From contig JAIUYB010000046.1 in assembly GCA_020216625.1 (NCBI GenBank), positions 1 to 10,091 on the forward strand: DNA of 10,091 nucleotides. The letters run 5' to 3'. Position 1 is the stretch's first letter. Each line of letters begins with the position of its first letter. The notes under the pieces are model-generated. The model did no database searches. It was not told the origin of the DNA and was given only the letters and a program-made list of their open reading frames with translations. Below are positions 4,901-9,736 of this stretch, in pieces. Made by a program: the position numbers and the translations under genes. The DNA is from Desulfarculus sp. (GTDB lineage Bacteria; Desulfobacterota; Desulfarculia; Desulfarculales; Desulfarculaceae).

Positions 4901-5064
4901 GTGTTGGCGTGGGCTCCGAGCTGCGCCGACCGCTGGGCATCGCCATCATCGGCGGCCTGATCATCAGTCAGATCCTGACGCTCTACACCACTCCCGTGGT
5001 CTATCTCTACCTGGACCGCTTCCGACTTTGGTTGCGCCGTCCGCGCCACCTCCGCCGGACCTAG
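1972..5064 (+). CDS. mdtC: MdtC-like RND multidrug efflux permease
   Basis: This is a complete 1030-residue RND permease, close to the ~1025 residues of E. coli MdtC. It begins with TM1 (MNLPAIFIRRPVATTLLTIG) followed by the family signature PVSPLPQVDFPTI. The N-terminal porter half contains DRDINGAARDVQGAINAA. TM4 carries the proton-relay pair Asp401-Asp402 in GFVVDDAIVVLENI. The second periplasmic half contains VPKGFFPEQDIG, FLQPVQDLRIGGRGSNALYQY and DALYDAFGQRQVS. TM10 holds Lys924-Lys925 in GIVKKNGIM, the latter matching the AcrB relay Lys. The start is set by the ATGA overlap with the mdtB-like gene; no strong Shine-Dalgarno sequence precedes it, which suits coupled translation. With MdtB it would form the heteromeric proton/drug antiporter of an MdtABC-TolC pump exporting amphipathic drugs or bile salts. 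No two-component genes (BaeSR-type) lie immediately downstream. No frameshift or lost key residue is seen. The general class is certain; the MdtC rather than generic HAE-1 assignment is strong but rests on remembered sequence. Confidence 0.93.
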   Translation: MNLPAIFIRRPVATTLLTIGLTLAGILAFRLLPVSPLPQVDFPTIMVMANLPGADPETMSTSVAAPLERQFGRIAGVTEMTSTSYRGATTITLQFELDRDINGAARDVQGAINAARGFLPSNLPANPVYRKVNPAEAPILILALTSDTVATDRIYDAASTILQQKLAQVSGVGQVIVGGSALPAVRVEIDPHALNHYGISLEQVRGVLAKTSVNHPKGQLTEDERTWEIQANDQLHTASEYRPLILSHRSGAAVRLADVAEVQDSVEDLRTGALVNGKPSVTIIIFRQPGANIIETVDNVRAILPQLEASLPGGVTASVVLDRTPPIRGSLRDVERALAISCFLVILVVFVFLRNLRATIIPGVAVVVSLIGTFGVMYLFGYSLDNLSLMALTIATGFVVDDAIVVLENITSHIERGEPPLQAALQGAQEITFTVVSMSASLVAVFIPVLLMGGMVGRLFREFAMTLSVAIAVSLVLSLTTTPMMCALYLRPPEGVSHGRLYRASERWFQALRSGYESSLRWALRHSRFMLLLIGLTLAINIHLYLVVPKGFFPEQDIGRLTGFIQAAQDISFQAMLDKMAQVVEVIRQDPEVEFVSGSTGGTGPGSGSTNSARMFITLKPFEERKATAGQVIARLRGRLAQIPGAPTFLQPVQDLRIGGRGSNALYQYTMQAEDLEALNAWAPRMVQKLRTLPELADVSSDQQNKGLRAEVVIDRDAAARLGIPTKAIDDALYDAFGQRQVSIFYTLLNQYHVIMELAPRFWQDPESLKSIYVPTASGALAPLSAFSRFETRTTTLAVNHQGQFPSITASFNLNPGVALGDAVRAVEAAAREMGMPAGIRGSFQGTAQAFMSSLSNQPWLILAALAAVYIVLGVLYESYIHPITILSTLPSAGMGAVAALLIFKTELSIIAMIGIILLIGIVKKNGIMMIDFALEAERRQGKSPDEAIFQACIQRFRPIMMTTMAALLGALPLALGVGVGSELRRPLGIAIIGGLIISQILTLYTTPVVYLYLDRFRLWLRRPRHLRRT

Positions 5065-5234: not shown

Positions 5235-6425
5235 ATGCCGGAGCAGAGCCGTCCCGCGGGCCGAGCGCGGCGATTGGACGCGCCGGTTCGTTTTTTGGAT
5301 AGCGACCAGGAGCGCGAGCCGGAGGATGGCCTGGCGTTGTGCCTTTCCGGCGGCGGCTATCGGGCCATGCTCTTTCACCTGGGGGCGGTGTGGCGGCTGT
5401 ATGAGCTCGGCCTCCTGGCCGGGTTGGACAGGGTCTCCAGCGTGTCGGGCGGCTCCATAACCGCGGCGGTGCTGGCCCTGGCCTGGGAAAGCCTCCGGGT
5501 CCACGAGACGCCAGACCCGGCCCGGTTTGTGGCCCAGGTGGCAGCCCCGATCCGGAAGTTGGCCCGGATCACCATTGATCGCCCGGCCATCATCCGGGGC
5601 CTGCTGCGGCCGGGGCGGGCCAGTGAATTCCTGGCGCGGGCCTATCGTGAGCATCTCCTGGGCGCGGCCACCCTCCAGGACCTGCCGGACCGGCCGCGTT
5701 TCGTCTTCAACGCCACCAACGTGCAAACCGGCTCGCTCTGGCGCTTTTCAAAGCCCTACATGGCCGACTACCAGGTGGGTCTGATCCCGCGCCCCCGGGT
5801 GGCCCTGGCCACCGCGGTGGCGGCCTCGTCGGCCTTCCCGCCCTTCATGTCGCCCCTGATTCTGGCGGTGAACCCGCTGTCCTTCGCTCCCCGCCAGGAA
5901 CGCGAGATTCTGCGCCGGCCACCCTTCAACCTGCGGGTGGTGCTCTGCGATGGCGGGGTCTACGACAACCTGGGCCTGGAAACGGCCTGGAAGCGCTACC
6001 GGACCATCCTGGTCAGCGATGGCGGCCAGAAGATGTCGCCCCAGGGCCGGCCCAAGGAGGACTGGCCGCGTCACACCCTCAGGGTGCTGAGCTTGATCGA
6101 CAACCAGGTCCGAGGACTGCGCAAGCGTCAACTCATCGGCTCGTACCAAACCGGCGATCGCGCCGGGGCCTATTGGGGCATCCGCAGCGACATCGACGAT
6201 TACGATCTGCCCTCCCACGGCCGGGGCCAACCGTTGCCCTGCACCCGCGAGGGTGTCCAGGATCTCGCCGACACCCCCACCCGGCTGAAACGGCTGTCAC
6301 CGGAGCGTCAGCGACGATTGATCAACTGGGGCTACGCCATCTGCGACACCGCCCTGCGCCGGCATTATTTCTCCGGGCCTCCGCCCTGGCCGGCGGTTTT
6401 CCCCTATCCCAGCGACGGAGTCTGA
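5235..6425 (+). CDS. Patatin-like phospholipase (acyl hydrolase)
   Basis: This 396-residue protein has the patatin/cPLA2 catalytic layout. The oxyanion-hole loop is LSGGGYRAMLFHLG (residues 37-50). The nucleophile elbow is SSVSGGS, with Ser71 as catalytic serine; the first Gly of the usual GxSxG is Ser69. The dyad Asp is Asp239 in CDGGVYDNLG. The tail (TPTRLKRLSPERQRRLINWGYAICD) is typical, as I remember it, of a bacterial patatin group. The family hydrolyses membrane phospholipids or other acyl lipids with a Ser-Asp dyad. No signal peptide or membrane segment is visible, so a cytoplasmic enzyme acting on the inner face of the membrane is inferred. The start is the only usable one: the frame is closed at 5157 and no ATG, GTG or TTG lies between. 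A GGGGGGGAG purine tract ends just 2 bases before ATG, an unusually tight ribosome-binding site. It is the first gene of a three-gene cassette; the next start is 24 bases after its stop. Specific substrate and trigger are unknown. Confidence 0.9.
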   Translation: MPEQSRPAGRARRLDAPVRFLDSDQEREPEDGLALCLSGGGYRAMLFHLGAVWRLYELGLLAGLDRVSSVSGGSITAAVLALAWESLRVHETPDPARFVAQVAAPIRKLARITIDRPAIIRGLLRPGRASEFLARAYREHLLGAATLQDLPDRPRFVFNATNVQTGSLWRFSKPYMADYQVGLIPRPRVALATAVAASSAFPPFMSPLILAVNPLSFAPRQEREILRRPPFNLRVVLCDGGVYDNLGLETAWKRYRTILVSDGGQKMSPQGRPKEDWPRHTLRVLSLIDNQVRGLRKRQLIGSYQTGDRAGAYWGIRSDIDDYDLPSHGRGQPLPCTREGVQDLADTPTRLKRLSPERQRRLINWGYAICDTALRRHYFSGPPPWPAVFPYPSDGV

Positions 6426-6449
6426 TCGGTCAGAGGGGAGTTGTGACCC

Positions 6450-8363
6450 ATGCAGCGTTTCCGCTCCGACGGCGGCTCAATTTACGACCTGCCCCGCCCG
6501 GCGTTCCGCCGCCTGCGCATCTATTCCCTGGACCCCAGCTTGGCCCAAAGCCTGGACACCATGGCCATCCGCGAAACCAGAATCGAGGTGCCCTGGGAGC
6601 TAACGGAGGATGGCCTGGGCGATGGGCCGGAGCCGGGTCCCCGGGGCGAATACCTGGAGGTGATCGACTACGACGCGCCCAACCAGGTCTTTTACAAGCC
6701 GGTGGACCTCAACGACAACTACCTCCTGGCCCAGGACGGGCTGCCGCCCTCGGACGGCAACCCCCAGTTCCACCAGCAAATGGTCTACGCGGTGGCCATG
6801 CGCACCATCCGCAACTTCGAGTTGGCCCTGGGACGGCGGGCCCTGTGGGCCCCGCGGCGTCGCGAGAAGAAAGGCAGGTTCAGCGAGGAGTTCGTGCGCC
6901 GGCTCAGGATCTACCCCCACGCCCTGCGCGAGGCCAACGCCTACTACAGCCCGGAGAAGAAAGCCCTGCTCTTCGGCTATTTCCCGGCCACCCCGGCCGA
7001 CGCCGGGCAGCACATGCCCGGCAGCATGGTCTTCACCTGCCTGTCCCACGACGTGGTGGCCCACGAAACCGCCCACGCCCTGCTGGACGGCATGCACCGC
7101 CGTCTGATCGAGGCCAGCAATCCCGACTGCCTGGCCCTGCACGAGGCCTTCGCCGACCTGGTGGCCCTGTTGCAGCACTTCTCCCTCACCGACGTGGTGC
7201 GCCACGTCGTCGGCCGCACCCGGGGGGATTTGGGGATCGGCAATCTGTTGGTGGAGCTGGCCCAGGAGTTCGGCCGGGCGGCGGGCTACAGCGGGGCCCT
7301 GCGCAGCGCCATCGGCCAACCGCCCGATCCCGGCGCCCTGGATCGGGCCGAGGAGCCCCACGCCCGGGGGGCGATCCTGGTGGCGGCGGTCTTCGACGCT
7401 TTTCTGGCCATCTATCGTCTGCGCACGGCGGATTTGGTGCGCCTGGCCACGCAGGGCAGCGGGGTCCTGCCGGCGGGCGAGATCCACCCGGATTTGGTGG
7501 AGCGCCTGGCCCGGGAGGCGGCCAAGAGCGCCCAGCAGGTGCTGAACATCTGCATCCGGGCCCTGGACTATCTGCCCCCGGTGGACGTGGTTTTTGGCGA
7601 TTACCTGCGGGCCCTGATCACCGCGGACTTCGATTTGGTGACCGACGACCGCTACGGTTACCGGGTTGCCTTCATCGAATCCTTCCGCCGTCGGGGCATC
7701 TATCCCAAGGAGGTGCGCTCGCTCTCGGAGGAAAGCCTGCGTTGGGAGGGCCCGGCCCTGGCCGGGACATCCCCCGACTCCCAGCTCAGCCTGGGGCGTG
7801 AACTGCGGGGCACCATGGCCGCCTGGGATCTCTGCGGCGACCGGCGGGAAATCTATGAAAACACCAGGGAGGCGCGCAAGGCCGCCCACGCGGTCATCGA
7901 GGCCACCCGAGATTATAAGCAAACCATCCTCAAGGGAGTGGACCTCACCCAGGGGAGGTTCGAAGTGCACTCACTCTGCCCGGTGCGTCGCATCGGGCCC
8001 AACGGCGAGTTCCTGACCGACGTGGTGCTTCAGGTCACCCAACGGCGGCCGGGATGCCTGGCCCGGTCCGAGGGCCGCGAGCAATGCCTGCCGCCCCTGG
8101 ATTTCGCTCCAGACCTGGAGCCCGATTTCTGGTTCCGGGGAGGATGCACCCTGATCTTCGACCTGGCCAGCGGCCTGCTGCGCTATTGCATCTACAAAGA
8201 CATCAACAGCCAGAACCGTTACGAGCGACAGCGCCGATACCTCGAAAGCGGTCTGGCCAGCGGCGCCTTCCTGCGGGCGACCTATGCCGGAGGGAGGGAC
8301 GACAAGGGGCAGGACGAGGTTTTCGCCTTGGTTCACCGCGGACTGCGGGGGGGAGGGGCATGA
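6450..8363 (+). CDS. Uncharacterised gluzincin (thermolysin-like) zinc metallopeptidase homologue
   Basis: This 637-residue protein has no name that I recognise. Residues 205-209 are HETAH (zinc-binding HExxH, catalytic Glu206), followed 23 residues later by Glu232 in LHEAFADL. This is the third-ligand ExxxD pattern of gluzincins such as thermolysin (M4), where the spacing is about 20. His304 in EEPHARGAIL may correspond to the thermolysin transition-state His (VHxxSGI). N-terminal to the core is a conserved-looking block (NPQFHQQMVYAVA, 104-116). After the core comes a helical part (YLRALITADFDL, RRRGIYP), and residues ~500-637 look like a separate beta-rich C-terminal domain (FEVHSLCPVRRIGPNGEFLT; CTLIFDLASGLLRY). 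No signal peptide, propeptide signature or membrane segment is seen, which is unusual because M4 enzymes are normally secreted as pre-pro-proteins. The start follows GAGGGGAG (6433-6440) at 9 bases. It overlaps the MBL gene by ATGA. Peptidase activity is inferred from the motif only; the substrate is unknown. Confidence 0.8.
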   Translation: MQRFRSDGGSIYDLPRPAFRRLRIYSLDPSLAQSLDTMAIRETRIEVPWELTEDGLGDGPEPGPRGEYLEVIDYDAPNQVFYKPVDLNDNYLLAQDGLPPSDGNPQFHQQMVYAVAMRTIRNFELALGRRALWAPRRREKKGRFSEEFVRRLRIYPHALREANAYYSPEKKALLFGYFPATPADAGQHMPGSMVFTCLSHDVVAHETAHALLDGMHRRLIEASNPDCLALHEAFADLVALLQHFSLTDVVRHVVGRTRGDLGIGNLLVELAQEFGRAAGYSGALRSAIGQPPDPGALDRAEEPHARGAILVAAVFDAFLAIYRLRTADLVRLATQGSGVLPAGEIHPDLVERLAREAAKSAQQVLNICIRALDYLPPVDVVFGDYLRALITADFDLVTDDRYGYRVAFIESFRRRGIYPKEVRSLSEESLRWEGPALAGTSPDSQLSLGRELRGTMAAWDLCGDRREIYENTREARKAAHAVIEATRDYKQTILKGVDLTQGRFEVHSLCPVRRIGPNGEFLTDVVLQVTQRRPGCLARSEGREQCLPPLDFAPDLEPDFWFRGGCTLIFDLASGLLRYCIYKDINSQNRYERQRRYLESGLASGAFLRATYAGGRDDKGQDEVFALVHRGLRGGGA

Positions 8364-9736
8364 TGGATTTCGCGGCTCCCGCCGGCGGTTGCGCGGTCCG
8401 CATGTACCGCCAGGGTCTGGGCGATTGCTTCTTGTTGGCCTTCGCCGACCTGGAGGGCGGCCAAAAGCGCCTGCTGATCGATTGCGGGGTGCTGGTTGGA
8501 ACCAAGGACGCGAGGCAGCGGATGCAGGCCGTGGTGGGCGACATCCGCCAGGCCACGGGCGGCCGCCTGGATATCCTGGTCGTCACCCACGAACACTGGG
8601 ACCACGTCTCGGGTTTTGTCCAGGCCCGCAAGGAGTTCGAGCGGCTGGAGATCGGCCAGGTCTGGCTGGCCTGGACCGAGGACGAGAACGATCCCCTGGC
8701 CCGGGAGCTGAGAGAGCGCCACCGGTCGGCGCTGCGCGCCCTGGGCCTGGCCCAGACCCGCTGGCGCAAGGCTCACCCGGAAGCGGACTCCGGCCTGAGC
8801 GCCCGGGTGGAGGCGCTGTTGGGGTTCTACGGACCCGGCCTGGCGACCCAGGGAGGCTCGCTGACCCAGGACGCCATGGACTGGGTCAAGGACCGGCATC
8901 CCCAACCAATCTACTTGAAGCCCGGTGGCGAGCCGGCGGTCATCCCCGGCCTGGAAGGCCCCCGGTTCTACGTCTTGGGCCCGCCCCTGGACCCGAAGCT
9001 GATCTATAAAGGCGATCCGGCCAAGGGCTCCGGCGAGGTCTACCTGGGCGATTTGTCCCAGGGATGGCCGGGGCTGCAATTTGGGGTGCTGGAGGCGGAG
9101 GCCGGAGCGGCCGAACCCCCGCCACCCTTCAACCCCGCCTATCGGTTTTGGGGCGACGCCCCCCACCGCATGCAGATTGAGGACCGCTACCGCTCCGAGC
9201 CCTGGCGCACCATCGACCAGGACTACCTGGACGCGGTGGGGCAACTGGCCCTGATGCTGGACAACCACACCAACAACACCAGCCTGGCCATGGCCATCGA
9301 ACTGACGCCGGGCAGAGCGGTGTTGCTTTTCCCCGGGGACGCCCAGCGCGGCAACTGGTCCTCCTGGGAGACGGTGCGCTGGACCGGGGCGGGAGCCGGG
9401 ACCACCACCCAGGACCTCCTGGGCCGCACGGTGCTCTACAAGGTGGGGCACCACGGCAGCCACAACGCCACCGCCCGGGGCCTGGGCCTGGAGCTGATGA
9501 ACCATCCCGGTTTGGCGGCCCTGATCCCGGTGGACCGCGAGACCGCCGCCCAAAAGCGTTGGCAGATGCCATATCCGCCGCTGTTTAGGCGTCTCCTGGA
9601 GCGCACCGGTGGGCGTCTGTTGCTTTCGGACCGGGGCTGGGAGGTGGACCCGGCCGCCCCGGCGGTGGCGGAGTTCGCCGCCCGCTGCCGGGAGACCGAG
9701 CTGTATTTCGAGGTGGCCTTCCCCCCGGCGACGTGA
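8360..9736 (+). CDS. Metallo-beta-lactamase-fold hydrolase, ComEC-like type
   Basis: This 458-residue MBL-fold protein has, after an N-terminal strand pair (MYRQGLGDCFLLAF; LLIDCG), the metal motif HEHWDH at residues 77-82. The later core elements are NNTS (305-308), the bridging Asp327 in LLFPGDAQ and KVGHHGSHN (His364, His365, His368). That C-terminal order matches the MBL domain of ComEC/Rec2-like proteins, but there are no ComEC membrane segments, so it is a soluble stand-alone enzyme. About 220 residues with no recognisable motif separate HEHWDH from the NNTS strand, much longer than in a typical MBL domain. MBL enzymes of this branch often act on phosphoesters or nucleic acids; the substrate here is unknown. 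Start: ATGATG gives two candidates. ATG 8360 makes a 4-base overlap with the upstream stop, while ATG 8363 sits 6 bases after GGAGG (8352-8356) and may be the better initiator. The open frame continues upstream to 8054, but that would overlap the peptidase gene by about 100 codons. Last gene of the cassette. Confidence 0.88.
   Translation: MMDFAAPAGGCAVRMYRQGLGDCFLLAFADLEGGQKRLLIDCGVLVGTKDARQRMQAVVGDIRQATGGRLDILVVTHEHWDHVSGFVQARKEFERLEIGQVWLAWTEDENDPLARELRERHRSALRALGLAQTRWRKAHPEADSGLSARVEALLGFYGPGLATQGGSLTQDAMDWVKDRHPQPIYLKPGGEPAVIPGLEGPRFYVLGPPLDPKLIYKGDPAKGSGEVYLGDLSQGWPGLQFGVLEAEAGAAEPPPPFNPAYRFWGDAPHRMQIEDRYRSEPWRTIDQDYLDAVGQLALMLDNHTNNTSLAMAIELTPGRAVLLFPGDAQRGNWSSWETVRWTGAGAGTTTQDLLGRTVLYKVGHHGSHNATARGLGLELMNHPGLAALIPVDRETAAQKRWQMPYPPLFRRLLERTGGRLLLSDRGWEVDPAAPAVAEFAARCRETELYFEVAFPPAT

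Follow-up and report, generated by a model that had tools for sequence, protein, structure and literature searches.

The window analysed here, a 10,091-nucleotide stretch of contig JAIUYB010000046.1 from the draft, 70%-complete genome of a Desulfarculus species, carries a cassette of three genes on its forward strand. These encode a patatin-like phospholipase of 396 aa (5235..6425), a thermolysin/fungalysin-fold HExxH metallopeptidase of 637 aa with a C-terminal beta domain (6450..8363), termed GLU, and a ComEC-like metallo-beta-lactamase (MBL)-fold enzyme of 458 aa (8360..9736). The conserved unit is the pair of peptidase and MBL rather than the trio, several lipases, the patatin among them, being interchangeable as its partner. 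With its predicted activities, the cassette resembles an as yet undescribed kit for self-destruction against viruses. We put at slightly under one half (0.48) the probability that the cassette was acquired laterally and serves as an execution module of the defence type, comprising an MBL nuclease freed by a protease and an interchangeable effector directed at membrane lipids.

In the proposed mechanism, the ComEC-like MBL would be held inactive by a long insertion. In response to a trigger that is not visible in the window, the cytosolic metallopeptidase, or a subtilase-peptidase pair in fused relatives, would cut this insertion, probably at a conserved Pro-Phe dipeptide, so freeing the nuclease. 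The patatin would serve as a second, interchangeable effector hydrolysing the cell's own membrane lipids, and jointly these activities would kill or arrest the cell and thereby halt phage growth. It is a more tentative, and on balance doubtful, proposal that such an immune module is widespread and has gone undescribed, with a metallopeptidase, either by itself or as a fusion with a subtilase, cutting at Pro-Phe to activate a gated DNase of the ComEC-like type while a swappable lipase attacks the membrane, in a two-hit death programme against DNA and membrane. Were this true, proteolytic triggering of cell death would have been built with several unrelated proteases in bacteria, the version with a metallopeptidase and lipase being represented by 478 relative-encoding stretches and by no family model in the libraries scanned. 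As a candidate cut site can be named, the idea is directly testable.

Conservation of the peptidase and MBL pair

A scan of 84,980 species genomes identified 478 stretches encoding a relative of GLU, of which the best 80 were kept; all counts of loci therefore describe the closer relatives. By their titles, the records of GLU relatives come from Proteobacteria, Acidobacteria, Planctomycetes, Chloroflexi, Bacteroidetes, Verrucomicrobia, Armatimonadetes and archaea. In 71 of the 80 loci, GLU is directly followed by an MBL gene (68 as called genes, with L010, L014 and L016 added by tblastn), such that the pair keeps together across many phyla. Two of the nine exceptions, L049 and L079, run off their contigs, and the other seven (L029, L047, L050, L053, L062, L065 and L068, the last with only 1250 bases downstream) are subtilase-GLU fusions forming one clade on the GLU tree. 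L029 adjoins a GMC oxidoreductase and an enolase-superfamily gene, which suggests that this clade does another job.

The association is reciprocal on plasmids, when compared by eye: all 33 records with an MBL match have a same-strand GLU match within ~1.7 kb, and an MBL is present in 28/28 records containing at least 80% of GLU, among the best 40 of 71 GLU records. The distances between GLU sequences and those between their MBLs are also correlated (r 0.66 over 65 loci, species divergence uncorrected), none of 2000 permutations giving as high a value.

An earlier note on this DNA had described three co-directional genes forming a unit. The three open reading frames (ORFs) are confirmed, with coordinates that agree, including the 24 bases between patatin and peptidase and the ATGA overlap between peptidase and MBL. 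As to the unit, which the note held would be refuted if the genes were rarely adjacent in other genomes, the peptidase and MBL bear it out in 71/80 loci, but for the patatin, which is adjacent in 19/80 and interchangeable, the refuting condition partly holds.

Catalytic sites, predicted folds and the candidate gate

The catalytic motifs reported in the earlier note lie where it placed them, and alignments of 19 patatins, 43 GLUs and 47 MBLs, in which the window proteins are included and fused, tandem and broken copies excluded, show no variation at the catalytic residues. In the patatin these are Ser71 (5445-5447) and Asp239 (5949-5951). GLU has the HETAH zinc motif at residues 205-209 (7062..7076; H205, E206 and H209 invariant) and a third zinc ligand at Glu232 (7143..7145). 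In the MBL, they are the HEHWDH metal motif at residues 77-82 (8588..8605; H77, H79, D81 and H82 invariant), the ligand Asp327 (9338..9340) and the HHGSHN motif at residues 364-369 (9449..9466; H364, H365, S367 and N369 invariant). The reported lack of signal peptides is in keeping with the N-termini, none of which looks hydrophobic by eye.

The patatin matches Pfam PF01734 (82.5 bits against a cut-off of 27.7; 6e-23), and PADLOC phospholipase effector models match it weakly (0.0046). It has the fold and Ser-Asp dyad in common with the CapV-type patatins of CBASS. Unlike in CBASS, there is no CD-NTase or other nucleotide cyclase ORF in the window, at the end of which the contig also ends, in keeping with the earlier note's remark that the cassette includes no cyclase.

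GLU shares its fold and HExxH plus Glu zinc site with peptidase families M4 and M36, but it matches nothing in Pfam, NCBIfam, PADLOC or the PDB sequences, shows neither a signal peptide nor a propeptide, and has an extra C-terminal beta domain. A profile search likewise found no PDB sequence, and the Pfam Peptidase_M4 model was detected in 6/43 GLU members, at E 0.0046 or worse, with no family assigned to the window protein. The thermolysin/fungalysin call rests on VIA-align, the Foldseek matches being modest (E 0.0014 for the best, so that none reaches 0.001). An NTF2-like identity for the C-terminal domain was set aside, as Foldseek values of 0.3 and worse are too weak for use. Four Variovorax loci (L016, L037, L042 and L080) have two tandem GLU domains within one ORF, the first copy forming its own long branch on the GLU tree, and in L009 (9185-11062) GLU is split over reading frames.

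The MBL is recognised by Pfam at 4.5e-7 and has a predicted ComEC-like fold with intact metal motifs. It scores 37 bits with NCBIfam NF041809 (Avs1a / AVAST type 1; cut-off 420) and 25.1 bits with NF058524 of the 6A-MBL system (cut-off 220). All 47 MBLs match LmuA, but so does a generic MBL of the same genome (1.8e-5), and these matches were therefore not taken to prove kinship. Confidence in the predicted structure is low at residues 221-290 of the insertion (9020..9229; pLDDT block means 44-66), making this the candidate gate. Within it, the candidate cleavage site Pro256-Phe257 (9125..9130) is conserved in 46/47 (Pro) and 47/47 (Phe) sequences, although other conserved residues are found nearby and the spacing overlaps that of the comparators. 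An 895-aa MBL ORF in L017 (12063-14750) contains a giant insertion at the same place, with the two halves of the MBL match ~355 residues apart, and in L031 (2717-4182) the MBL is split over reading frames.

According to Tuck et al. 2025 (PMC12799240), MBL nucleases of Hachiman and AVAST have disordered insertions, each with a conserved isoleucine, that are predicted to block the active site, and cutting by a trypsin-like partner activates them. Caspase partners also exist, and the protease-gated nucleases are those of Hachiman (HamM), AVAST type 1 (Avs1a), Lamassu, DRT and caspase-nuclease (canu) loci. Compared with these accounts, the cassette is similar in anatomy: it has an MBL of the DNA-uptake (ComEC) type adjoining a protease gene, and an insertion containing conserved residues within a stretch predicted to have little order. 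By contrast, its protease is an unrelated, thermolysin-fold metallopeptidase, neither trypsin- nor caspase-like, the MBL is downstream of the protease, a lipase is added and no sensor gene is visible in the window. The cassette most likely works as the described families do, yet it falls outside them, since its protease class differs, its MBL matches the Avs1a and LmuA models weakly and it includes a lipase. Because the MBL is ComEC-like, a class gated by proteolysis in other bacteria (PMC12799240), it is more likely to be the substrate of the peptidase than to form or degrade a signal, as the earlier note had suggested.

Interchangeable partners

The patatin lies directly upstream of GLU in 18 of the 80 loci (17 called, plus L080, where it was masked in gene calling); in L072 it comes immediately after the MBL. 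In about half of the loci, there is no lipase beside the pair. A profile search detected an N-terminal subtilase fused to GLU in 23/80 loci, confirmed by Pfam PF00082 in L026 and L045, and patatin and fused subtilase never occur together (0/23 versus 18/57; Fisher p 0.001, relatedness uncorrected). Other lipases take the patatin's place in some loci: downstream of the MBL there is a DUF2235 lipase in L039, where it is confirmed as PF09994, in L057 and in L078, where it is cut by the contig end, and a class-2 lipase is upstream in L037. On the GLU tree, the distribution of patatin needs 13 changes if L080 is counted as patatin-bearing and 14 if it is not, at least 10 of the latter being forced by strong branches. 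On plasmids, 12 patatins are found beside GLU-MBL among the best 30 of 44 patatin records, five upstream, six downstream and one divergent.

The best-ranked plasmid patatin among the matches listed, 57.7% identical to that of the window, is from Sinorhizobium meliloti M270 (L176), where it heads a tight patatin-subtilase-MBL set of the same gene order. None of the three is GLU; the protease is instead an S8 peptidase, alongside an MBL of the LmuA/Avs1a type that matches LmuA over residues 2-375 of 434 (7e-53). The combination of lipase, protease and ComEC-like MBL therefore persists though the protease class changes. No published test of this operon was found in the literature searched, nor was a description of the window's gene set among open-access papers, judged mostly from listings. 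The 6A-MBL anti-phage system (NF058523, NF058524) also uses a ComEC-like MBL, but its partner is a Cap2/Cap3-like protein rather than a protease of the GLU kind. In Gluconobacter oxydans 621H pGOX1 (L178, 3737-8209), a patatin gene overlaps, downstream, an operon of a 6A-MBL-like MBL and a Cap2/3-like gene, and hence the association of ComEC-like MBL with patatin recurs in another system.

Distribution, neighbourhoods and alternative explanations

The cassette is an accessory element. Among 97 other genomes of relatives searched, one contains a distant homologue and 96 contain none. Similarity to the window in three congeners extends as far as 5018-5039, where a pump gene ends, and the next genes differ. 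A lone, distant GLU-like ORF of 466 aa with HETGH and LHESF motifs (L092, 2173-3573) is found in a congener of the window's genome.

Several relatives of the cassette on plasmids neighbour defence genes: pRle248a has DarTG, a CBASS cyclase and Hachiman-like genes, pColt5.8d a CBASS cyclase with a SAVED protein, pAtH25_79a a restriction enzyme together with Hachiman-like genes, and pCMU01 SIR2 genes. Complete 6A-MBL pairs (NF058524 with NF058523) adjoin patatin-GLU-MBL sets in loci titled Burkholderiales (L018, 14481-17950), Sphingomonas (L021, 14894-18351) and Flavisolibacter (L075, 14496-17811), making a functional link possible. Proteins related to 6A-MBL are also encoded nearby on two Hymenobacter plasmids (L084 and L146). 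A sensor-like NB-ARC/TPR protein is upstream in L036, and in Hymenobacter monticola an AAA ATPase (AAA_23 and AAA_21, with SMC_N just under the cut-off) precedes GLU by 24 bases.

Set against a defence role are the results of controlled comparisons. PADLOC searches of the flanks revealed no clear excess over random stretches of the same genomes (best 25 of 63 and of 53 families). When scored by product names, twelve plasmid windows, chosen by the author from the 28 records that cover 80% or more of the peptidase, had defence-like neighbours in seven cases, compared with 3/12 elsewhere on the same plasmids (p 0.21). The positives were H4, H5, H6, H8, H10, H15 and H17, of which H10 and H17 qualified through a ThiF protein and H15 through multiubiquitin and ThiF; the control positives were one Shedu and two SIR2. 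Toxin-antitoxin genes were left uncounted, as were the Mov34 proteins of H1 and H2. H9, H12 and H14 were without any defence-like neighbour. A mini-library of defence proteins matched several of the 80 test loci and 0/48 control loci, but was unusable as a test because it was drawn from these same neighbourhoods. Viral contigs contained one distant relative with two peptide patterns, and phage records two matches, one of them an unverified 9.5-kb record. A defence role is likely, short of established, and the immune-type function suggested in the earlier note is plausible.

An unlikely alternative is turnover of lipids or the envelope, with the patatin removing acyl chains, the MBL acting as a phosphorylcholine-esterase-type phosphodiesterase and the peptidase maturing or removing its partners. 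The sporadic distribution, the retention of gene order with an LmuA/Avs1a-type MBL in S. meliloti, the defence genes beside several plasmid copies and the many pairs lacking an adjacent lipase all argue against it. Somewhat less probable again is activation of the patatin by the peptidase, with the MBL acting to form or degrade a small signal. In its favour, patatins serve as immune effectors in other systems, and patatin and peptidase distances are correlated (r 0.57 over 19 loci, 0/2000 permutations); however, it is the MBL that the peptidase keeps, and in Foldseek this ComEC-like protein places the signal-degrading MBL Apyc1 far down the ranking (E 0.058 versus 6.9e-9). Proteolytic activation, proposed for the lipase in the earlier note, is still the likeliest link between the genes, with the MBL a more likely substrate than the patatin. 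Delivery of the enzymes into competitors by type VI secretion is improbable: Tle1-like lipases are known cargo of this system and the DUF2235 partner in L039 belongs to Pfam's T6SS Tle1-like family, but no VgrG, Hcp or PAAR product name occurs in the 12 plasmid neighbourhoods and no signal or delivery domain was seen. That unrelated genes are neighbours by chance is barely credible, despite the ordinary genes around the cassette, in view of the adjacency, reciprocity and correlated divergence, which already contradict it for peptidase and MBL.

Elsewhere in the window, two RND pump genes, the first of them truncated at the window start, precede the three ORFs, and a partial ORF on the minus strand at the contig end (9816-10091) resembles, by eye, a response-regulator receiver domain.
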